IMG/VR virus record: IMGVR_UViG_3300032331_003997
Location: 1-27,148 of that record
Strand: one strand, 5' to 3'
Length of the DNA stretch: 27,148 bases
Source of the DNA: a virus
Shown here piece by piece: positions 2,436-22,289 of this stretch. The notes under the pieces were generated by a model. It saw only the letters and a program-made list of their open reading frames with translations. It did no database searches and had not been told where the DNA came from. How positions within the stretch are numbered: the first letter of the stretch is position 1; each line of letters starts with the position of its first letter. The position numbers and the translations under genes are program-made.

Positions 2436-3089
2436 ATGGCACAAGGAATTTATAAAATAACAGAAGATTTTGAAAAAGCATTATGTGATTATACAGGTGC
2501 TCCTTATGCAATTGCTTTAGATAATATGAGTAATGCTTTATTTTTATCATTGTATTATGAAAAAAACATTAAAAAAAGTCTTGTTACTGATATAGTTGAA
2601 ATTCCTTCTAGGACTTACCCTTCTGTTCCTTGCGAAATTATACATGCTGGGTTAAAAGTAAAATTTACTCCTATTGAAGGAACTACAATTAAAGGAGCAT
2701 ATCAACTTGAAGGGACAAACATATGGGACTCAGCTTTAAGATTTACAGCTGATATGCATATTCCTAATACTCATATGTGTTTATCCTTTACAGGACCTTA
2801 TAAAACACTTAAGTTAAGTAAAGGTGGAGCTATTATAACTGATGATTATCAAGCAATGTTATGGTTTAAAAGAGCTAGATTTAGTGGCAGAAGAGAATGT
2901 TCATATTATGATGATAACTTTGATATGCTAGGATGGAATTTCTATATGATGCCGGAACTAGCAACTAGAGGACTACTAATGATGACTCAGTTCTATAATT
3001 TAGATGGAACTAAAAAACATAATGTTGATATAGAGCATTCTTATCCTGATCTTTCCAAATTTGAAATTTATACTAAAACAAACAGATGA
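2436..3089 (+). CDS. Miniature DegT/DnrJ/EryC1-like PLP protein
   Basis: Resembles the large PLP-binding domain of sugar aminotransferases (DegT/DnrJ/EryC1/StrS fold). ALDNMSNALFLSL near residue 27 matches the phosphate-binding SGT.AL turn. WDSAL near residue 97 supplies the Asp that contacts the pyridine nitrogen. SFTGPYKTLKLSKGGAI aligns the likely Schiff-base Lys at about residue 123 with the usual spacing to the GG pair. The protein is only 217 residues, against about 370-400 for the family, and lacks the C-terminal domain. It ends cleanly and overlaps the next start, so it is not an obvious pseudogene. It could be a minimal aminotransferase or a non-catalytic paralogue. Confidence 0.65.
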   Translation: MAQGIYKITEDFEKALCDYTGAPYAIALDNMSNALFLSLYYEKNIKKSLVTDIVEIPSRTYPSVPCEIIHAGLKVKFTPIEGTTIKGAYQLEGTNIWDSALRFTADMHIPNTHMCLSFTGPYKTLKLSKGGAIITDDYQAMLWFKRARFSGRRECSYYDDNFDMLGWNFYMMPELATRGLLMMTQFYNLDGTKKHNVDIEHSYPDLSKFEIYTKTNR

Positions 3090-5405: not shown

Positions 5406-6367
5406 TGGAAGATAAAAACATATTAGTAATATATAACATATGTGGTATTAAATTTGATAATATCAAAATGTGGATGAATCATCTTGAAGATATTATCAAT
5501 CAGAATTATTCAAATTTTAAAATAGTAGTTTCGGGATGTAAAGTTTCTGAGGGGAGTAAACAACAGCTTTTAAATTTTAAAGATAAGTGTAGTAATATTT
5601 CCTTTAATTGGGTAGATGAAATATTACCAATTAGTGTAACTTTTAATCAAACAGTACAAATATGTACAGAAGAATTTGGTTTATTTGATGCTTATTTCTA
5701 TATAGCTTCTGATGTTAAGTTTGGTAATGATAAGAATGTAATTTCAAAAATGGTAAAATTACATTTTGAAAGTAATAGTGCTATTACCTCAGCTATGGTA
5801 GATAACGATCATGGATTAGATGGTATTTACCATGATTGCTGGAATGATCTTGATGAATTATTAAATAATGATCATTTTTGTATCAATATAGGAAGAGGAG
5901 CAAACATGCATGCTATGATATTTGATAAAGAAATATACTTAAATTTTAACAATAAAATCATCCCAGATATATTTGCTTCTCATCATATTGAAAATACATT
6001 TGTTTATATTGCAGCTTCATTAAGTAAAAAATTTGTTGTTCATAGTAAAGATGTTATGCTAGGACATATAGGATTTGCTGATGGTCATGCGGTTGGCTTT
6101 ATGGATGAAATTAAATGGGATCATACAATAGCATGGAAACACCTATTTAAATCAAAAATACCTGCAGAAGAAAGATTACTTAATGATGAAGCTAAAAAAT
6201 GTGGGTTTGGGTATGGAGGAACTTTATTATTACCTAATGAAGAAATGTATGATGAAGATGAAAATCATAAAGACCCATCTCGATTACTTAGCTTTTTAAA
6301 ACCCTCAATTTACCTTTCAGATGATGAATATAATTACAAAGACATTACATACAATTTTATAAAATGA
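5405..6367 (+). CDS. Putative GT-A glycosyltransferase
   Basis: A 320-residue soluble protein. An N-terminal alternating strand/helix region resembles GT2 enzymes, and FYIASDVKFGNDKNV near residue 97 lies where a DxD motif would be (SDV here, so the metal site is altered). NIGRGANMHAMIFDKEI near residue 162 and the DIFASHHIENTF segment resemble the acceptor region of large phage and cyanobacterial glycosyltransferases. It starts at the last base of the GT10 stop and its own stop overlaps the RmlC-like gene. Donor and acceptor are unknown. The fold call is moderate; the enzyme class is inferred partly from context. Confidence 0.5.
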   Translation: MEDKNILVIYNICGIKFDNIKMWMNHLEDIINQNYSNFKIVVSGCKVSEGSKQQLLNFKDKCSNISFNWVDEILPISVTFNQTVQICTEEFGLFDAYFYIASDVKFGNDKNVISKMVKLHFESNSAITSAMVDNDHGLDGIYHDCWNDLDELLNNDHFCINIGRGANMHAMIFDKEIYLNFNNKIIPDIFASHHIENTFVYIAASLSKKFVVHSKDVMLGHIGFADGHAVGFMDEIKWDHTIAWKHLFKSKIPAEERLLNDEAKKCGFGYGGTLLLPNEEMYDEDENHKDPSRLLSFLKPSIYLSDDEYNYKDITYNFIK

Positions 6368-6840
6368 TATTTCCAGAAGTAAAAATATTTCAACCTGATT
6401 CATTTGAAGATTACAGAGGAGAACTATATACTCTATTTAAACAGGAAGAGCATGAATTAGTTTTTAATCATGATAAGGTATCTGTTTCTAGACAAAATGT
6501 TTTAAGAGGGATGCATGGTGATTCTAAATCATGGAAATTAATAACTTGTTTAAGTGGTGTAGTATATTTAGTTGTTATAGATAACAGACCCGAGTCTTCA
6601 AATTATTTAAAGTGGGATAGTATAGTTTTAAGTGAAACTAATAAAAAACAAGTATTAGTACCTCCTATGTTTGCTAACGGACATTTAGTATTAAGCGATA
6701 CCGCTGTATTTTTTTATAAATGGTCATATCCTGGAGAATATCCGGATGTTAAGGATCAATTTACATTAAAGTGGAATGATCCAAAAGTTAATATACATTG
6801 GCCTATAGATAATCCTATACTTTCAAAACGAGATAAATAA
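6364..6840 (+). CDS. RmlC-like dTDP-4-keto-sugar epimerase/isomerase
   Basis: A 158-residue cupin of the dTDP-4-dehydrorhamnose 3,5-epimerase family. DSFEDYRGELYTLF is the start pattern, VLRGMHGD near residue 46 is the RGLH motif with the catalytic His, and VPPMFANGHLVLSD corresponds to the VP.GFAHGF segment. The C-terminus has KWNDPKVNIHWPI, the family W.DP..gI.Wp motif. In related 3- or 5-monoepimerases and WxcM/FdtA-type isomerases the second acid/base residue varies; here the usual Tyr/His pair cannot be assigned with certainty. No RmlA or RmlB gene is in the window, so the nucleotide may not be dTDP. Confidence 0.8.
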   Translation: MIFPEVKIFQPDSFEDYRGELYTLFKQEEHELVFNHDKVSVSRQNVLRGMHGDSKSWKLITCLSGVVYLVVIDNRPESSNYLKWDSIVLSETNKKQVLVPPMFANGHLVLSDTAVFFYKWSYPGEYPDVKDQFTLKWNDPKVNIHWPIDNPILSKRDK

Positions 6841-7487: not shown

Positions 7488-8102
7488 ATGAATAACGAAC
7501 AAATTAAAACGGAACTTTTAGAAAATGGATATTCTATAATAGATAATTTTCTTCCTTTAGAATTAGCTGAAAAAACACATCAATTATTTGATCAAACCTT
7601 AGGATGGGATACTATAGAGCAAATTAGAGAAAACCACTTTGGCCATGTATTTAAAACAGTTTCCCCTTATCTCCCTAAAGAAGGAGAAGTATACACAGCC
7701 AGATTTAAACGTTCCGAAGAACTAGAAAAAACAGAACATACCCAGGGATTATTTAAAGATTATTTTATTCCTCTACTTAAACAAGTATCTCCGTTTGAAG
7801 TAAATGAATTTGATGTTAGGTGTTATAAATTAGGAGAGGGTGATCATTATAGAACTCACATTGATGATTATGCTGGGAAAATTAATATAATTTATTATGT
7901 TAATAATGATTGGAAATGGGATTGGGGTGGAATACTTAATATTTTATCTGATACTGATTTTGAATTTCAAAAATCAATCTTTCCTAGGTTTAACAGAATA
8001 GTACTACTAAATAATCAAGTATTTAGATATCCTCACTATGTAAGTACAGTTGAACCATATGCTAAAAACTCTAGATATTCAATTATATCTTTTAACAAAT
8101 AA
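7488..8102 (+). CDS. Prolyl-4-hydroxylase-like Fe(II)/2-oxoglutarate oxygenase
   Basis: A 204-residue double-stranded beta-helix oxygenase. The iron ligands are the His and Asp of THIDDY (about residues 124 and 126) and the distal His of [12 protein letters not shown] (about 183). The basic residue for 2-oxoglutarate is Arg196 in NSRYSIISF, or nearby Lys193. The N-terminal [17 protein letters not shown] is the usual P4H-type beginning. In phages these proteins hydroxylate proteins, nucleotides or sugars; between a methyltransferase and sugar-nucleotide genes, a sugar or glycopeptide substrate is inferred. Confidence 0.8.
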
Positions 8103-8140
8103 TTTTGAAAGGCCAAATAAATTCATTATACTCACATAAT

Positions 8141-8737
8141 ATGGGAAAGAAATATACAGCACAAGAGCTTATTGACTTTGAAACTAAAGTAAAAGAAGCT
8201 TATGAAGTAGGACAAATTAAAGGTCCTGTTCATCTATCTAAAAATAATGAAGAACAACTAATCAACTTATTTGAAAATATAAATGAAGATGATTGGGTGT
8301 TTTCCGCTTGGAGAAACCATTACCATGCTTTACTTCATGGAGTTGATCCTGATTACCTATTTAGAACAATTAGTGAAGGTAAAAGTATGGGAACTAATAA
8401 TGTTAAACCTAACTTCTATGCTTCATCTATTGTAGGTGGAATTATTCCTATTGCTTTAGGAGTAGCTCAAGCTCTTAAATTAAAAAATTCACCAAATAAA
8501 GTATGGTGTTTTATAGGTGATATGACAATGGAAACGGGTGGATTTTGGGAAGCATACAAATACTCTCAGAATTTCAATCTACCCCTTCAATTTGTAGTTG
8601 AAGATAATAATTTAAGTGTTCATACTCCAACTACAACAGCATGGAACACAAGAATGGAACCACCTAAAAATGTAATTTATTATTCATACCCTATGCATTA
8701 TCCTCATCATGGAACTGGTAAATGGGTTAATTTTTAA
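8141..8737 (+). CDS. Compact E1-alpha/transketolase N-type TPP protein
   Basis: The thiamine-diphosphate-binding half of a 2-oxo acid dehydrogenase E1/transketolase-type enzyme. KGPVHLSKNNEEQLI and RNHYHALLHGVD match the substrate-channel region of E1-alpha. GDMTMETGGFWEA (from about residue 126) with EDNN ending near 157 is the GDG-x(~27)-NN diphosphate/Mg motif, with Met replacing the third Gly. The protein is about 198 residues against about 320-370 for E1-alpha and ends soon after the TPP motif. I chose the ATG at 8141, just before the conserved KKYTAQELIDF; a TTG at 8105 would add twelve residues. The partner subunit follows after three bases. No E2 or E3 gene is present, so acyl transfer to lipoamide is unlikely. 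Confidence 0.8.
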   Translation: MGKKYTAQELIDFETKVKEAYEVGQIKGPVHLSKNNEEQLINLFENINEDDWVFSAWRNHYHALLHGVDPDYLFRTISEGKSMGTNNVKPNFYASSIVGGIIPIALGVAQALKLKNSPNKVWCFIGDMTMETGGFWEAYKYSQNFNLPLQFVVEDNNLSVHTPTTTAWNTRMEPPKNVIYYSYPMHYPHHGTGKWVNF

Positions 8738-8740
8738 TAT

Positions 8741-9277
8741 ATGAAGTATAAAGACGAATTAGTAAGAGCAATGGAATGGTTAGGTGAAAAACCTAATACT
8801 GTATTTACTGGTCAAGCTATAGCTTTAAGTGGCCATGCTATTTCAAATACAATGGAAAAAGTACCTAAAGAAAAACGTATTGAACTTCCTGTACTTGAAG
8901 AAACACAGTTAGGAATGGCTACTGGATTAGCATTAGAAGGATTTGTTCCTATTACTTGTTATCCACGTTTTGATTTTTTTATCCTAGCAATGAACCAGTT
9001 AGTAAATCATTTAGATAAAATGAGAGAAATGACTGAAGATAAAATGCAACCTAAAGTAATCATTAGAGTAGCAGTAGGATCTAAAAAACCATTTTCAGCT
9101 GGCCCACAACATACTCAAGATCATACTGAGGCTCTTAAATTAATGTTAACTGATATTGATGTTATTTCACTCAATGAACCTGAAGATGTATTCCCAGCAT
9201 TTGAGAAAGCATATAATCGTACAGATGGAAAATCAACCTTAGTAATAGAATACGCAGAATATTATGGCACAAAATAA
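8741..9277 (+). CDS. Compact E1-beta/transketolase pyrimidine-domain protein
   Basis: Pyrimidine-binding half of the same TPP enzyme. RIELPVLEETQLGMATGLAL (about residues 47-66) contains the Glu that activates the aminopyrimidine, and EGFVPITCYPRFDFFILAMN follows as in E1-beta. VAVGSKKPFSAGPQHTQDHT matches the substrate/cofactor loop with its His. At 178 residues it lacks the C-terminal transketolase domain that makes E1-beta about 325 residues. The two genes together therefore encode only the two TPP-binding domains. The stop overlaps the start of the ColD-like gene by 14 bases, suggesting coupled synthesis and a shared pathway. Confidence 0.8.
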   Translation: MKYKDELVRAMEWLGEKPNTVFTGQAIALSGHAISNTMEKVPKEKRIELPVLEETQLGMATGLALEGFVPITCYPRFDFFILAMNQLVNHLDKMREMTEDKMQPKVIIRVAVGSKKPFSAGPQHTQDHTEALKLMLTDIDVISLNEPEDVFPAFEKAYNRTDGKSTLVIEYAEYYGTK

Positions 9278-10436
9278 ATTTAGTTGGCCGTTAATTAACG
9301 ACAACATAACACAACAAGATAGACAAGTATTAGCTGATTTTTGTTTAAATGGAGAACGTTTTACAAATGGAGCTAAAGTAAAAGAATTTGAAAAAGTATG
9401 GTCTGAATGGCTTGGAGTTAAACACTCAGTAATGGTAAATTCAGGAGCATCTGCTAATTTTGTTTCTATAGCAATGGTAAAAGAACTAGCAGGTATAGGA
9501 GAAGTCATAGTACCTCCACTTGGATGGGTTTCAGATATTTCCTCAGTAGTGCAGCTGGGAATGAAACCCGTATTTGTGGATATTAGTATGAATAATTTTA
9601 ATATTACTGCTGAAAATATTAAACGTGCTATTACTAAAGATACTAAAGCAATTGTATTAGTTCATACTTTAGGCTTTAATGGTATGACTGATGAAATTGT
9701 TAAAATAGCAAAAGAAAATAATATTATATTAATTGAAGACTGTTGTGAAGCTCATGGTGCCCAATTTGGGGATAGGAAAGTAGGATCAATAGGTGATATT
9801 TCATTATTTTCATTTTATTTTGGACATCACATTACTACCATTGAAGGTGGTACTGTTTGTATGAATGATGATAAATTATATGATCTAGCTAAACTATTTC
9901 GTTCACACGGTATGACTAGAGAAGCATCTCCAGAATTACAAGAATATTATAAACTAACTAATCCTGATTTAAATCCATTATTTACATTTGCAGTAGCCGG
10001 ATTTAATATGAGATCAACTGAGTTAAATGCCGTGTTAGGCCTAGAACAAATGAAACGCCTAGATTTTAATATTCAAAAACGAACTCAGAACCTTCATACT
10101 TGGTTAGATAATCTAGATGGTCTTAAGTTTATCAAAGGATTTAGAACAGAAGGTAGTAGTAATTTTGCTTTGCCTTTAGTAATGCAAGGTTCTACAAAAG
10201 ATAAATTAAAAGATGTTTGTAATATTTTAGAAGAAGAAGGTGTAGAGTATAGATTAGGAACAGCAGGTGGAGGAAATCAAGCTAAACAACCCTATCTTAA
10301 AAACTTCTCTTATGAAATATGTGGTACTCTAGCTCAAGTTAATTATATTCACAGTAATGCACTTTATATAGGTAACCATCCTGAATTAAATGAAAGTCAA
10401 ATTATTAATCTCTGTAAAAAATTAAATAATGTTTAA
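9264..10436 (+). CDS. colD: ColD/RfbH-like PLP 4-keto-6-deoxy-sugar 3-dehydratase
   Basis: Full-length (390 residues) DegT-fold PLP enzyme. In FSFYFGHHITTIEGG the Schiff-base Lys of the aminotransferases is replaced by His (188/189). This is the diagnostic change in GDP-4-keto-6-deoxymannose 3-dehydratase (ColD, catalytic His188) and CDP-sugar E1 (RfbH). LRSHGMTREAS-type and FAVAGFNMRSTELNAVLGLE segments follow as in that family. Such enzymes use PMP to remove the C3 hydroxyl. There is no obvious [2Fe-2S] cysteine set as in RfbH, so the ColD-type mechanism is favoured. It overlaps the TPP subunit gene upstream and the reductase gene downstream, and a GDP-mannose 4,6-dehydratase at 12360 would supply the substrate. 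Confidence 0.85.
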   Translation: MAQNKFSWPLINDNITQQDRQVLADFCLNGERFTNGAKVKEFEKVWSEWLGVKHSVMVNSGASANFVSIAMVKELAGIGEVIVPPLGWVSDISSVVQLGMKPVFVDISMNNFNITAENIKRAITKDTKAIVLVHTLGFNGMTDEIVKIAKENNIILIEDCCEAHGAQFGDRKVGSIGDISLFSFYFGHHITTIEGGTVCMNDDKLYDLAKLFRSHGMTREASPELQEYYKLTNPDLNPLFTFAVAGFNMRSTELNAVLGLEQMKRLDFNIQKRTQNLHTWLDNLDGLKFIKGFRTEGSSNFALPLVMQGSTKDKLKDVCNILEEEGVEYRLGTAGGGNQAKQPYLKNFSYEICGTLAQVNYIHSNALYIGNHPELNESQIINLCKKLNNV

Positions 10437-11400
10437 AGATCAAAAAGTATTAATAACAGGCGGTGGTGGAATGATTGGCCGTTCATTAGTAAAATTATTA
10501 TTAGATAGAGGGGCAAAAATAACAATTGCGGATTTGACTAAGCCTTCTGATTTGCAAGATGGAGTAGACCATGTACAGGTTGATTTAAGATTCTTTGACA
10601 ATTGTCTTGATATTTGTAAAGATAAAGATTATGTATTTCATTTAGCGGGTGTTAAAGGATCACCTAAGATGTGTGCTGAGCAGCCTGTTGATTTTATGGT
10701 TCCTATGCTTCAATTTAATACCAATATGATGGAAGCTGCTCACCAAGCAGGAGTTAAATGGTATTTATTTACTAGTTCAGTTGGGGTTTATGCTCCTGCA
10801 GATGTATTTGTTGAAGATACAGTTTGGAGTACAATGCCTTCACCAAATGACAGGTTTGCAGGTTGGGCTAAACGTATGGGAGAATTACAAGCCGAAGCTT
10901 ATGGAATTCAATACGGAAAGAAAAACATATCAATTGTAAGACCAGCTAATGTATATGGTGATTATGATAATTTTAATCCTGCAAATGCAATGGTTGTTCC
11001 ATCATTAATTAGAAAAGCTCAGGAAAATGAAGTATTAGAAGTTTGGGGAGACGGATCACCAATCAGAGATTTCATTCATGCTGATGATGTTGCTTTAGGA
11101 ATGATATATGCTGTAGAAAAACAAATAACTGAACCTATTAATTTAGGATCAGGCAAAGGATACTCAATTAAAGAAGTAGTTGATATGGTTGTTAAACATT
11201 CAGGTAAACAACTTGAAGTTAAATGGTTAACAGATAAACCAGCAGGAGATAAAGTTCGATTATTTGACATGACAAGAGCTAAATCTTATGGATTTGATAT
11301 TTCAGTCTCATTAGATGAAGGTATTAAAAATACTACTGAATGGTTCTTAAACAATAAAGAAATACTAGATAAACGTTATAACGCATTTGTAAATCATTAA
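10429..11400 (+). CDS. GDP-fucose-synthase-like SDR, dyad Tyr replaced
   Basis: Extended SDR of 323 residues. LITGGGGMIGRSLVKLLLDR is the NAD(P)-binding GxxGxxG. VRPANVYGDYDNFNPANAM and WGDGSPIRDFIHADDVA are close to GDP-L-fucose synthase/colitose synthase. The catalytic dyad is abnormal: in FAGWAK the Tyr position is Ala144, with Lys148 retained. The epimerase Cys and His of GDP-fucose synthase (Cys109 and His179 in E. coli) are also absent: SSVGVY replaces SSCIYP, and DYDNF replaces HDNF. It is therefore predicted to act, if at all, as a 4-keto reductase without 3,5-epimerisation, or as a partner of the next gene. It overlaps the ColD-like gene by eight bases. Confidence 0.8.
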   Translation: MFKDQKVLITGGGGMIGRSLVKLLLDRGAKITIADLTKPSDLQDGVDHVQVDLRFFDNCLDICKDKDYVFHLAGVKGSPKMCAEQPVDFMVPMLQFNTNMMEAAHQAGVKWYLFTSSVGVYAPADVFVEDTVWSTMPSPNDRFAGWAKRMGELQAEAYGIQYGKKNISIVRPANVYGDYDNFNPANAMVVPSLIRKAQENEVLEVWGDGSPIRDFIHADDVALGMIYAVEKQITEPINLGSGKGYSIKEVVDMVVKHSGKQLEVKWLTDKPAGDKVRLFDMTRAKSYGFDISVSLDEGIKNTTEWFLNNKEILDKRYNAFVNH

Positions 11401-11401
11401 T

Positions 11402-12367
11402 ATGGAAAATTATTTTAAAGACAAAAAAATTGTAGTAACAGGAGGTAGTGGTTTTATAGGATCACATTTTCTACTTGAATTAGTAAAAAGAGGAGCTAAA
11501 GTAAAAACACATACTTATCATTCTCCTTTACAAATTGAAAGTGATAATATTGAAATAATACCTAATATAGATCTAACTAAACTAGAAGATTGTATTAAAT
11601 TAGTAGAAGGAGCAGATTATGTAATCCATTGTGGTGGAAAAGTAGCTCACCCTTCTACAGTACCTACCGATGTTCAGATAGGATTAGCACAACTTAACTT
11701 AATAGGAAATGTATTAGAAGCATGTGCTAAAACAGGAGTTAAAAAATTTCTTGATCTAAATAGCTCTACAGGATACCCAGATATTAGAAGACCACTTACT
11801 GAAGATGAATATTGGGTTGATGAGCCTTATAAATCATATTATGGATATGGATGGATGAGAAGATACAGAGAAAAATTAATGGAACACGTTTCTAAATTTT
11901 CAGGATTACATATTGCTCTTGCTAGGTGTACTGCTATATTTGGCCCATATGATAATTTTAATTTAAAAACATGTCATGTAGTTCCGGCTTTAATTAAAAG
12001 ACATTTAAGTGGAGAAGATCCATTTATTGTTTGGGGTAGTCCAAATGTAGTTAGAGATTTTCTATATGTTAAAGATGTAGTAAACGGTGCTTTACTTATT
12101 CTTGAAAAAGGAGAATCAATGAGACCTTATAATTTAGGTTATGGTGGTGGAATTACAATTGGTGAGATTGTAGATTCTATTTTAAAAGTAACTGGTAAAA
12201 CTCCTGAAGTAATTTGGGATGAAACTAAACCAACAACAATTCCTTTTAGAGCAGTAAGCACAGAAAGAATTCAAACAGAATTAGGATTCAAACCGGCTTA
12301 TACATTTGAAGAAGGTATTAAAGAAACAATTGATTGGTATATTAACAATAAAATAACTAATGAATAA
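11402..12367 (+). CDS. GDP-fucose-synthase-like SDR, dyad Lys replaced
   Basis: A 321-residue extended SDR, paralogous to the gene just upstream. VVTGGSGFIGSHFLLELVKR is the dinucleotide-binding motif, and IFGPYDNFNLKTCHVVPALI and WGSPNVVRDFLYVKDVV follow. The dyad reads Tyr149-x3-Arg153 (YGWMRR), so Lys is replaced by Arg, the reverse of the loss in its neighbour. The GDP-fucose-synthase Cys and His for epimerisation are missing here too (NSSTGYP and GPYDNF). It starts one base after the upstream stop and overlaps the dehydratase gene by eight bases. A 4-keto reduction of a GDP-deoxy sugar is the most likely reaction. Confidence 0.8.
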   Translation: MENYFKDKKIVVTGGSGFIGSHFLLELVKRGAKVKTHTYHSPLQIESDNIEIIPNIDLTKLEDCIKLVEGADYVIHCGGKVAHPSTVPTDVQIGLAQLNLIGNVLEACAKTGVKKFLDLNSSTGYPDIRRPLTEDEYWVDEPYKSYYGYGWMRRYREKLMEHVSKFSGLHIALARCTAIFGPYDNFNLKTCHVVPALIKRHLSGEDPFIVWGSPNVVRDFLYVKDVVNGALLILEKGESMRPYNLGYGGGITIGEIVDSILKVTGKTPEVIWDETKPTTIPFRAVSTERIQTELGFKPAYTFEEGIKETIDWYINNKITNE

Positions 12368-13370
12368 AGTATTAATTACAGGAATAACAGGAATGGTGGG
12401 ATCACACTTAGCTGATTATTTATTAGCTAATACTGACTGGAAAATATATGGTTTAGCTCGTTGGAATGATTCATTAGAAAATATTGAGCATCTATCTAAT
12501 GAAATTAATAGTAAAGAGAGAATTGAATTAGTATATGGTGATTTAAATGATTTAGCATCATTGTTAGTTGCTGTAGATAAATCAAAACCTAACTATGTAT
12601 TTCATTTAGCAGCTCAATCATACCCACAAACAAGCTTTGATTCACCTATTGAAACACTTCAAACTAATATCTTAGGAACAACTAATTTATTAGAAGCACT
12701 TAGGAGATCAGAATATAAAAATGCTGTAATTCATGTTTGTGCTTCAAGTGAAGTATTTGGTAGAGTACCTAAAGAAAAACTACCAATCAATGAAGAGTGT
12801 AATTTTCATCCTGCTTCACCCTATGCTATATCTAAAGTAGGAACTGATTTAGTTGGTCGTTATTATGCTGAAGCATATAATATGACTATTATGACTACTC
12901 GTATGTTTACTCATACAGGGCCAAGACGTGGAGATGTATTTTCAGAATCAACATTTGCTAAACAAATTGCAATGATTGAGGCTGGACTACAAGAACCAAA
13001 AATATATGTTGGTAATTTAGAATCACTTAGAACATATGCTGATGTTAGGGATGCTGTTAAAGCTTACCATATGTTAGTAACAGTTAATCCTACACCAGGT
13101 GAATACTATAATATTGGAGGTAATTATACTTGTAAGATAGCAGATATGCTTAATTTTCTAATTAGTCAATCAACAGTACCTAATATTGAAATAGTAACGG
13201 ATCCTGAGCGTTTAAGACCGATTGATGCTGATCTACAAATCCCAGATATTACTAAATTTTCTAATCATACAGGATGGAAACCAGAAATATCTTTTGATAA
13301 GACAATGAGAGATCTTTTAGAATATTGGAGAAATAAAGTTAAATCAGGACGTAAATTTTTAAAACGATAA
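12360..13370 (+). CDS. gmd: GDP-mannose 4,6-dehydratase
   Basis: Extended SDR of 336 residues. LITGITGMVGSHLADYLL is the GxxGxxG motif, HLAAQSYPQTSFDSP is the characteristic GMD segment, and HVCASSEVFG gives the Ser-Ser-Glu catalytic set. SPYAISKVGTDLVGRYYAE carries the YxxxK dyad, and TRMFTHTGPRRGDVFSES binds the GDP-sugar. The reaction converts GDP-D-mannose to GDP-4-keto-6-deoxy-D-mannose, the substrate of ColD and of GDP-fucose synthase-like reductases. Both types are encoded just upstream. The short bacterial form is similar in length to RMD/GMD proteins of A-band and colitose clusters. A related TDP-glucose or UDP-sugar dehydratase is less likely. Confidence 0.85.
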   Translation: MNKVLITGITGMVGSHLADYLLANTDWKIYGLARWNDSLENIEHLSNEINSKERIELVYGDLNDLASLLVAVDKSKPNYVFHLAAQSYPQTSFDSPIETLQTNILGTTNLLEALRRSEYKNAVIHVCASSEVFGRVPKEKLPINEECNFHPASPYAISKVGTDLVGRYYAEAYNMTIMTTRMFTHTGPRRGDVFSESTFAKQIAMIEAGLQEPKIYVGNLESLRTYADVRDAVKAYHMLVTVNPTPGEYYNIGGNYTCKIADMLNFLISQSTVPNIEIVTDPERLRPIDADLQIPDITKFSNHTGWKPEISFDKTMRDLLEYWRNKVKSGRKFLKR

Positions 13371-13373
13371 AAT

Positions 13374-14165
13374 ATGCAAAATAAAATCTATGAAACCTCA
13401 CCAGAAGGTTATGTATATGTAGACTCAAATTGGAATAATAAATTTAGAAATGAAACTTTAAGACTTTTAAAAGAGAAAAAAATTATAAGTGAAGATGCTA
13501 ATGATTTAGAAAACATTCATCAATATGTTACAGACAAATCATTAACAGATTATGATTTTAATTCTGGTGTTAATGGTATTACTAAGGCGCTTTATGATGT
13601 TGATGATAAATTTTTAAGTCTTTATAATGAGTTTCTTAAAGATTTATATGATAAATTAGGATATGATTTTTACTTTCAAGAATCACCAACTATTAGAGTT
13701 CACTGTCCTGATGCTGTAAATCAACACCATTATCCTAGATATCATAGTGATTGTTTTTATGGTCATCCACCTCAAGAAATTAATATTTGGTTTTCTCTAA
13801 CTGATAATAATCATTCTGGATTTTATTTTATGAATTACAATGACAGTAAAAAATGGTTAGATGAAGTTAATAATGATGATGAGTTGTTTATTGAGAAGGC
13901 TATTAATGATAAGGATTTTAATAAAAAAGCAAATGCATTGTGTTTTGAAGTAGAAGCAAATACAAATAAAATATTTTTATTTGATTCATTTTGTATACAT
14001 ACAAATCAACCTAGAACAGGAGATTCTCGAATTTCAATAGATATAAGAATTAATCCCGTTGAAGGATTTGTAGATGGATATATTGGAAAAGGAAGAATGA
14101 AAGCAGAATTTAGACCTGGTGGAAGATTTGGTTATGGTAAAAAATCAATAAAAGAATTGTTATAA
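13374..14165 (+). CDS. StrG-like Fe(II)/2-oxoglutarate-type oxygenase
   Basis: A 263-residue jelly-roll oxygenase-like protein. The iron site is predicted as His124 and Asp126 (YHSDCFYG), with His209 in FDSFCIHTNQP and Arg219 in GDSRISIDIRIN binding 2-oxoglutarate. The middle INIWFSLTDNNHSGFYFM segment is the usual core strand pair. The pattern resembles sporadic sugar-cluster oxygenases such as StrG. It lies between the dehydratase and the heptose-type kinase, so a sugar hydroxylation or oxidation is inferred. It is not closely similar to the oxygenase at 7488. Confidence 0.7.
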   Translation: MQNKIYETSPEGYVYVDSNWNNKFRNETLRLLKEKKIISEDANDLENIHQYVTDKSLTDYDFNSGVNGITKALYDVDDKFLSLYNEFLKDLYDKLGYDFYFQESPTIRVHCPDAVNQHHYPRYHSDCFYGHPPQEINIWFSLTDNNHSGFYFMNYNDSKKWLDEVNNDDELFIEKAINDKDFNKKANALCFEVEANTNKIFLFDSFCIHTNQPRTGDSRISIDIRINPVEGFVDGYIGKGRMKAEFRPGGRFGYGKKSIKELL

Positions 14166-14953
14166 TGACAAATAATAAATTAAAGAAACCTGAATTTAGA
14201 AATTATAATATATTAGTAATTGGGGATGCATGTACTGATGTTTTTATATATGGGCTTGCTGTTAGACTAGCTCCTGAAGCACCCGTCCCTATTATCAATC
14301 CAACATTTACTACTTCCAACCCAGGAATGGCAGGTAATGTATTTCAAAATCTTAAAGCATTAGGAGCAAACGCTATATCTCTTACTAATGCTGAAAACAT
14401 GACTAAAACTAGATATGTTGATGATAGAACAGGTACTATATTATTAAGAGTAGATGAAAATGATGAGGTTGATAGAATATCTCAAGATATTCTTGAACTT
14501 ATAAAAGACAATGAATATTTAGGTACTAAAATAGACGCTATTGCTATTAGTGATTATAAAAAAGGATTTTTAGAAGAAGATGATATAAAGTTTATTTGTG
14601 ATAATAATAAAAATGTATTTATTGATACTAAAAAAATGTTAGATAGCTGGTGTATAAATGCTTCTTTTCTTAAAATAAATAGTGGAGAATACGAACATAC
14701 AAAGTATTCTTTAAAAGATCTTAATATTGATGATAAATTAATTGTTACTTTATCTAATAAAGGATGTAGATATAAAAACAAAATATTTCCTGTAAAAAAA
14801 GTAGAAATTAGAGATGTATCAGGAGCTGGGGATACCTTCCTATCAGGACTAATATTAGAATATCTTAGAACAAATAGTATAGAAGAAGCCATCTTGTTTG
14901 CTCAAGAATGTGCTACTACTGTAATACAAAAACCTGGAGTGGCTACAATATGA
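14165..14953 (+). CDS. PfkB-family kinase like the HldE N-domain
   Basis: A 262-residue ribokinase-fold protein. ILVIGDACTDVFIYGLAVRL and APEAPVPIINP match the HldE/RfaE1 D-glycero-beta-D-manno-heptose 7-phosphate kinase signature. NPGMAGNVFQNLKALGA is the PfkB substrate loop, and DVSGAGDTFLSGL is the GAGD anion hole with the catalytic Asp. HldE kinase domains are about 315-330 residues; this one is shorter but retains both key motifs. With the adenylyltransferase-type gene at 1457 it could supply two steps of ADP-heptose synthesis. It begins on the last base of the previous stop and ends with an ATGA overlap. Confidence 0.8.
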   Translation: MTNNKLKKPEFRNYNILVIGDACTDVFIYGLAVRLAPEAPVPIINPTFTTSNPGMAGNVFQNLKALGANAISLTNAENMTKTRYVDDRTGTILLRVDENDEVDRISQDILELIKDNEYLGTKIDAIAISDYKKGFLEEDDIKFICDNNKNVFIDTKKMLDSWCINASFLKINSGEYEHTKYSLKDLNIDDKLIVTLSNKGCRYKNKIFPVKKVEIRDVSGAGDTFLSGLILEYLRTNSIEEAILFAQECATTVIQKPGVATI

Positions 14954-21476: not shown

Positions 21477-21560
21477 ACCTGGGTGTTGAAAAGGTATACA
21501 AGAAGCACTTAAAATGCTTTGAGCTGAAAGCTCGTGTGGGTTCGAGTCCCACTCCAGGTA
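21477..21560 (+). tRNA. tRNA-Leu (anticodon UAA)
   Basis: A complete class II tRNA of 84 bases. The acceptor ACCTGGG pairs with TCCAGGT. The D arm is TTG...CAA. The anticodon stem AAGCA/TGCTT encloses CTTAAAA, giving anticodon TAA. A long variable arm is GAGC-TGAA-GCTC-like, and the T arm is GTGGG-TTCGAGT-CCCAC. The discriminator is A, as expected for Leu. CCA is not encoded. UUA is a very frequent Leu codon in the surrounding genes, so the gene would help translate this AT-rich genome. Confidence 0.9.
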
Positions 21561-21573
21561 CATAATTATTGAT

Positions 21574-21902: not shown

Positions 21903-22289
21903 GGGGCATACCGGTATCGATTCGGATGATGAGATAATATCACATGCAGGCGTTTGGTAGAGTCGCCTTAGAAAACTGCAAACAATAACTGACGAAATGT
22001 CAACAATGACCTTCGACGACCTTATGGCGTTCGTAGGCGCCGACTACGCTTTAGCAGCCTAGTCCGCAAACGGGTGAGTGTAACCTAGGAACAGAAGACC
22101 TCCAAGTACTCACAATCGACTTGTTAAATAAGGACTGTGAATTAGTTTCTTGATGTCATAAATCAAGTGGTGGAAACGACCATAAAGGTCAGCCCTTACT
22201 GATCAGGAGTAATTCAGATCTAAGCATGTGATACGTTGGTATTATTGTCACTTCCGAAGACCTGGGTTCGAATCCCAGATGCTCCACCA
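21903..22289 (+). ncRNA. ssrA: tmRNA (ssrA)
   Basis: The 5' end GGGGCAT pairs with ATGCTCC at the 3' end and includes the G3-U70 wobble that directs alanine charging. The T arm CTGGG-TTCGAAT-CCCAG and encoded ACCA complete the tRNA-like domain. The 5' GGGGCATACCGGTATCGATT is typical of bacterial tmRNA. The tag frame ends in DYALAA followed by TAG at 22060-22062. With GGC at 22036 as resume codon the tag would be GADYALAA (eight residues); GCC at 22039 is the alternative. Total length is 387 bases. It rescues stalled ribosomes and tags the products for proteolysis. Confidence 0.92.

Follow-up and report, generated by a model that had tools for sequence, protein, structure and literature searches.

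A miniature two-chain thiamine pyrophosphate enzyme in a phage glycan island and its possible role in branching a GDP-4-keto-heptose

The synthesis of GDP-3,6-dideoxyheptoses by a DmhA-type dehydratase, a ColD-like 3-dehydratase, an epimerase of the 8dak type and a C4-reductase was described by Raushel and colleagues in Campylobacter jejuni HS:5/HS:11 (PMC10440746, PMC10680097). Separately, pairs of thiamine pyrophosphate (TPP) proteins homologous to the E1 alpha and beta subunits of pyruvate dehydrogenase (PDH) have been assigned to the C4 acetyl branching of 4-keto sugars, namely AviB1/AviB2 (avilamycin), Pau11/Pau12 (paulomycin) and EvdU5/EvdS3 (everninomicin) (PMC4425429, PMC4753412, PMC10338323). 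The DNA analysed here, called the window, is a virus record of 27,148 bases (IMG/VR IMGVR_UViG_3300032331_003997), itself a fragment, whose left half is a glycan island containing a miniature E1-type pair, TPPa and TPPb, followed by sugar nucleotide enzymes. The best explanation of this cluster, to which a probability of about 55% is given, is that the pair would add an acyl branch to a GDP-4-keto-(3,6-dideoxy)heptose.

Six open reading frames between positions 8141 and 13370 were found intact on the plus strand, where the genes at 1457-1858, 6364-6840, 7488-8102, 13374-14165 and 14165-14953 described below also lie, and they are tightly packed in the order and with the overlaps given by an earlier sequence-only reading. 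Families were assigned by Pfam domain matches, and NCBIfam cut-offs served as the yardstick. The earlier reading had proposed a GDP-linked, 3-deoxygenated 4-keto-sugar pathway, which is supported, and a two-carbon branch, which is likewise supported as the likeliest step for the TPP enzyme. It had missed the epimerase gene at 6364-6840. Its base sugar, GDP-mannose, was dropped as the leading view, heptose being likelier on the DmhA-like, heptose-epimerase-like and HddA evidence. The use of an E1-type pair is not in itself new, as it has the proposed precedents named above.

TPPa (8141-8737, 198 aa) consists only of an E1-alpha-type PP domain, which binds Mg and TPP (PF00676, E1_dh, 1.8e-14; PDH E1 alpha in the PDB, 4.6e-10). 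TPPb (8741-9277, 178 aa) is an E1-beta-type pyrimidine-binding (PYR) domain without the transketolase C-terminal domain (PF02779, Transket_pyr, 8.4e-8). The presence of these two domains in two chains agreed with the earlier view of an E1-type protein. An acetolactate-synthase-type, YerE-like protein was excluded, as the Pfam matches held no TPP_enzyme_N/M domain. The best start of TPPa appears to be the ATG at 8141, also chosen earlier, because the conserved region begins just past it; starting instead from a TTG, at position 8105, would yield a protein of 210 aa, whose 12 extra residues are absent in most relatives. Among the aligned relatives of TPPa the Mg/TPP motif has an invariant GD and, after it, an almost invariant Asn. 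The catalytic Glu of E1 (Glu53) and His124 of TPPb were invariant in 109/109 aligned relatives, whose lengths range from 173 to 245 aa with a median of 179. Human PDHB and PDHA1 and E. coli WcaG served as reference sequences in the alignments. Both proteins are truncated and fall far below the PDH E1 equivalog cut-offs; as the catalytic residues are kept, the pair should be an active TPP enzyme, for which an alpha2beta2 assembly lacking the C-terminal domain would be expected.

Two of the sugar enzymes point to a heptose. The protein at 12360-13370, labelled GMD in the sequence-only reading, matches GDP_Man_Dehyd (3.9e-77) and is nearest DmhA, the Campylobacter GDP-heptose 4,6-dehydratase (7us5, E=1.1e-108, 52% identity), while E. 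coli Gmd scored just 1.9e-41. The RmlC-like cupin protein at 6364-6840, a predicted GDP-4-keto-heptose C3/C5-epimerase, has as its best solved-structure match the C. jejuni GDP-D-glycero-4-keto-D-lyxo-heptose 3-epimerase (8dak, 4e-45, 50% identity), and the match to dTDP RmlC is far weaker (7e-23). Two cluster enzymes are thus about 50% identical to GDP-heptose enzymes of C. jejuni and much nearer these than the hexose versions; together with the gene linkage described below, this makes GDP-heptose the probable substrate. The third enzyme is a pyridoxal phosphate-dependent DegT protein at 9264-10436 (DegT 1.7e-77; ColD 5e-56, 33% identity), with a His (FGHH motif) in place of Lys at the position of ColD H188. 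It is a predicted 3-dehydratase, as was claimed earlier, because the catalytic His of ColD is present. The same His was found in 40/40 DegT proteins of TPP loci, and a Lys-type aminotransferase making a 4-amino sugar was rejected on this basis.

The remaining two genes encode proteins of the short-chain dehydrogenase/reductase (SDR) fold, SDR1 (10429-11400) and SDR2 (11402-12367), with Epimerase Pfam E-values of 3e-45 and 9e-42. SDR1 was modelled by AlphaFold2 with a mean confidence score (pLDDT) of 88.7, and its structure search returned only the general GDP-fucose synthase/epimerase fold. At columns 107/109/136/140/179 of GDP-L-fucose synthase (Fcl) the residues are S/G/A/K/M in SDR1 and S/T/Y/R/H in SDR2, so that SDR1 lacks the catalytic Tyr (S-A-K) and the related SDR2 keeps Tyr with Arg for the catalytic Lys (S-Y-R). 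Neither protein carries the Fcl set of S107/Y136/K140 with C109 and H179, and both score far below the NCBIfam Fcl cut-off. The catalytic Tyr is missing in every member of the SDR1 clade, and relatives of SDR2 have lost either Lys or Tyr. The earlier description of two fucose-synthase-like reductases is therefore unsupported by the active sites, with the canonical Tyr/Lys pair absent from both. They are tandem SDR-fold proteins, nearly always found together. No canonical C4-reductase with an S-Y-K triad was found among the annotated core genes.

The conservation of the locus was examined in other viruses. Relatives of TPPa are encoded on 166 viral stretches, which argues against a chance family. 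Of the 80 TPP loci obtained from one scan of viruses, 51 were non-redundant and of the split type. In 47/51 of these a DmhA-like (23) or a Cj1427-like (25) enzyme was present, both occurring together in one locus only, and the two were nearly mutually exclusive (Fisher p=2e-9). An epimerase-like gene was likewise present in 47/51. The best solved structure for the Cj1427-like protein was 6vo6 (6e-115), and 6vo6/6vo8 we take to be Cj1427, a GDP-heptose C4-dehydrogenase, although no paper confirming this was found. The DmhA-like and Cj1427-like enzymes are the two known makers of GDP-4-keto-heptose by this assignment, and as this is their common output, the TPP pair would be travelling with that intermediate. 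The viral order is SDRc7-RmlC-TPPa, the gene immediately before TPPa is a relative of the 6364-6840 epimerase in 35/54 non-redundant viral loci, and HddA, HddC and GmhA are almost never seen. The earlier reading had stated that homologues in unrelated pathways would speak against it; those of the split family were found overwhelmingly in GDP-4-keto-heptose loci.

The reciprocal searches were in accordance with this linkage. The mini pair was present in 47/51 viral loci retrieved by the Cj1427-like protein, and an E1-type pair in 27/33 retrieved by the DmhA-like protein (15 miniature, 12 longer); two (L167, L179) of the six DmhA-like loci without an E1-type pair end near the dehydratase gene. 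Genes for a DJ-1/PfpI protein, a cupin and an unknown protein of 128 aa come with the longer pair, whose chains in L157 have 276 and 309 aa. Where the locus is complete, the longer pair sits between RmlC and ColD, which is the slot of the mini pair. This replacement was seen in L157 (3619-6940) and in ten other viral loci; in L157 the catalytic Glu of E1 beta is apparently Asp. A few phages carry an HddA-like heptose kinase of their own beside the TPP pair (L158 / L030, L236).

In cells, where a genome scan gave 19 TPP loci and genome searches added more, the pair adjoins homologues of HddA, HddC, GmhB and GmhA. The usual order in Verrucomicrobia is HddC, HddA, TPPa, TPPb, 3-dehydratase and a B12-radical S-adenosylmethionine (SAM) protein. 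The SAR11 bacteria have the same kit around the pair, in many cases including an HddC-GmhB fusion, RmlC and a gene of the Cj1427-like kind, and an Acidimicrobiales locus (L094) reads HddA-TPPa-TPPb-ColD. HddA was found in 14/14 TPP-positive Pelagibacterales against 76/397 sampled genomes (hypergeometric p=3e-11) and in 14/15 TPP-positive Verrucomicrobiae against 106/384 sampled (p=9e-8), both values ignoring shared ancestry. The HddA and HddC identifications were mostly best matches, yet all lie under the NCBIfam equivalog cut-offs. In the TPPa tree the window falls inside an all-viral clade of 18 rows (support 94/95); separate branches are formed by SAR11, by Verrucomicrobia and by further viral clades, with at least 5 forced changes between viral and cellular rows. 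In some SAR11 loci (L085 7238-8984 and L140) the mini pair is immediately preceded by another split TPP pair, which is of the transketolase type or the longer E1 type. Most of the cellular loci L097, L098, L137, L139-L141 and L146-L152 carry a B12-binding radical SAM protein beside the 3-dehydratase or the TPP pair, and this protein perhaps C-methylates the branched sugar.

A pathway was drawn from these homologies. The DmhA-like enzyme (12360-13370) would produce GDP-6-deoxy-4-keto-heptose, the His-type DegT enzyme (9264-10436) would take off O3, and the RmlC-like enzyme (6364-6840) would invert C5 and/or C3 beside the ketone. A 4-ketone is expected in the pathway because the 3-dehydratase and the epimerase both need one. 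In the key step TPPa/TPPb (8141-9277) would decarboxylate a 2-oxo acid on TPP, most likely pyruvate, and the two-carbon acyl anion would attack the C4 ketone to give a C4-acetyl-branched 3,6-dideoxyheptose, a nine-carbon sugar. As no canonical C4-reductase is present in the core, consumption of the C4 ketone by TPP-dependent carboligation is the simplest reading. Carboligation at C4 is judged somewhat better than an even bet, and acetyl from pyruvate as the acyl unit stands at even odds. SDR1 and SDR2 may act before or after branching. The glycosyltransferases and tailoring enzymes of the island would then attach the sugar to its target and modify it further, with the host surface and the virion as the probable sites; for the phage, this may serve to alter the host surface, to keep out superinfecting phages or to glycosylate the virion.

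The cluster was compared with the described systems. With the C. jejuni pathway it shares homologues of DmhA, of the C3-dehydratase and of the C3/C5-epimerase; GDP-heptose precursor genes occur with the cellular TPP relatives, and the Cj1427-like C4-dehydrogenase is an alternative in related loci. The C. jejuni pathway uses canonical C4-reductases and includes no TPP enzyme, whereas the window has the TPP pair and SDR proteins without the catalytic Tyr/Lys pair. Published ions for that pathway are 634.08 for GDP-heptose, 616.08 for its 4-keto-6-deoxy form and 600.08 for the 3,6-dideoxy-4-keto form (PMC10440746); an acetyl branch would be expected to raise the last to about 644.1 (+44.03), and a hydroxyacetyl branch, derived from hydroxypyruvate or a ketose, to about 660.1. 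With AviB1/AviB2 and Pau11/Pau12 the pair shares its two PDH E1 alpha and beta homologues, the TPP-binding and catalytic residues, and the genetic link to makers of 4-keto sugars in those 47 viral loci. The antibiotic proteins, EvdU5/EvdS3 included, are full-length E1 subunits (325 and 345 aa in Pau11/Pau12) and act on hexose- or pentose-derived sugars of actinobacterial antibiotics, while the window pair, of 198 and 178 aa, is not full-length, has no beta C-terminal domain and belongs to a family associated with GDP-heptose genes in phages, SAR11 and Verrucomicrobia, among others. YerE of yersiniose A synthesis also follows a His-type 3-dehydratase and acts on a 3,6-dideoxy-4-keto sugar nucleotide; however, it is a single flavoprotein of the acetolactate synthase type, and yersiniose A is CDP-linked, unlike the GDP-linked sugar expected here.

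A distant branch of the family in cyanophages and Parcubacteria has both TPP halves in one chain (phrog_34187), and the AlphaFold model of the fused homologue reached a pLDDT of 46 only. Genes for a zinc alcohol dehydrogenase and for a PfkB kinase flank the fused genes (S-SM2, P-TIM68, Parcubacteria; L082 14995-16203, L083 14995-16203, L101, L102). The cyanophage S-SM2 and P-TIM68 member, annotated as a transketolase central region-containing protein, belongs to the same protein family and lies inside a sugar-synthesis island, but it is a single 402-aa chain with 43-45% identity to the window protein, and its neighbours are the dehydrogenase and the kinase and not ColD and DmhA. Since this subfamily is distant and has other neighbours, its function should not be deduced from that of the mini pair, and it probably serves a different pathway.

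Three other explanations were weighed. The version of the sequence-only reading, in which GDP-mannose leads to a GDP-linked C4-branched 3,6-dideoxyhexose as an analogue of yersiniose, would use identical chemistry and draw on the more widespread pool, and ColD, the best dehydratase match, itself acts on GDP-4-keto-6-deoxymannose. The C3-dehydratases of C. jejuni are 62-67% identical to ColD-type enzymes, and therefore this enzyme does not discriminate hexose from heptose. The other genes do: the similarity to DmhA and the heptose epimerase, the HddA, HddC and GmhB genes adjoining the pair in cells together with the genome-wide co-occurrence, and the substitution of DmhA by the Cj1427-like GDP-heptose 4-dehydrogenase in half of the loci all make the hexose route unlikely. 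The direct adjacency of cellular TPPa to the heptose-7-phosphate kinase HddA in many loci, and of the fused subfamily to a PfkB kinase, would also suit a pair acting upstream like transketolase or DXS, building a heptulose phosphate or a deoxy variant for the heptose kinase and never touching the nucleotide sugar. This is improbable to a similar degree, as host metabolism already supplies sedoheptulose 7-phosphate, the viral pair is tied to 4-keto-sugar enzymes and almost never to HddA, HddC or GmhA, and the 3-dehydratase comes after TPPb in Verrucomicrobia.

The product could finally be an unbranched GDP-3,6-dideoxyheptose only, as in C. jejuni HS:5/HS:11, with the pair serving a separate sugar or an acyl modification of the same island. 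Every C. jejuni step bar the canonical C4-reductase is present and other tailoring genes are numerous in the island; this explanation is nonetheless given a low chance, since the Tyr/Lys pair that a C4-reductase should have is absent from SDR1 and SDR2, and since the slot between RmlC and ColD is conserved, with a different E1-type pair occupying it in loci that lack the mini pair. The branched heptose is thus preferred, and several points weigh against it. In one locus type (L180, L181, L185) SDR1, SDR2, ColD and DmhA are retained but no TPP pair is visible, the 3-dehydratase is missing from about half of the TPP loci, and SDR1 and SDR2 have no clear reaction. The likeness to DmhA and to the heptose epimerase may be shared by enzymes of GDP-4-keto sugars generally, because few hexose counterparts have been characterised, and the wider TPP family may use other acceptors, given the neighbours of the fused subfamily. 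The GDP-heptose supply set of GmhA, HddA, GmhB and HddC, which adjoins the pair in most cellular relatives, was absent from the window, whose own supply genes look ADP-heptose-type (HldE-like); GDP-heptose would therefore need to be supplied by the host.

Among the papers searched there was no report uniting E1-type branching with a dideoxyheptose pathway, each being known separately, no paper joining heptose, TPP and nucleotide sugars, and none on phage capsular heptose. The cluster may yield a surface sugar not yet described. A more tentative extension, on balance doubtful, is that undescribed C4-branched nonoses made from GDP-heptose are widespread in phages, SAR11 and Verrucomicrobia, with a minimal PP+PYR TPP enzyme and two SDR-fold proteins that lost the Tyr/Lys pair and catalyse a novel reaction once the branch is in place. 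If the proposed pathway is right, chemistry so far tied to Yersinia lipopolysaccharide and Streptomyces antibiotics would operate on GDP-heptoses in aquatic bacteria of high abundance and in the phages that infect them, surface nonoses open to structural surveys would be predicted, a small TPP carboligase would be at hand for glycan synthesis, and phage glycan islands would be tied to particular host surface sugars. With existing Campylobacter GDP-heptose reagents the idea is directly testable, thanks to a modular genetics of alternative 4-keto makers and alternative TPP pairs.

Other genes of the island were also annotated. An HldE-C-like nucleotidyltransferase at 1457-1858 is a possible heptose-1-phosphate nucleotidyltransferase (PF01467 1.2e-14; phrog_7878 5e-35), and a PfkB kinase at 14165-14953 resembles HldE domain I, being heptose-7-phosphate kinase-like (TIGR02198 1.3e-37; in 18/54 viral TPP loci). 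Of two 2-oxoglutarate-Fe(II) oxygenases, the upstream neighbour at 7488-8102 is weakly FlmC-like and of uncertain pathway membership (PF13640 3.5e-11; in 11/54 viral TPP loci), and the one at 13374-14165 is related to the 'sporadic carbohydrate cluster' family with a score under the cut-off (TIGR04324 3e-15) and is a possible tailoring enzyme. The gene at 2436-3089 encodes a DegT-like protein of 217 aa, apparently without the C-terminal domain, whose catalytic region contains a Lys; L004, L007 and L030 have comparable shortened copies. The right half of the window holds phage genes, including a head protease, a virion protein and a tRNA-Leu (21477-21561), near which lies a phage transfer-messenger RNA (21903-22289) with the tag peptide DEMSTMTFDDLMAFVGADYALAA.

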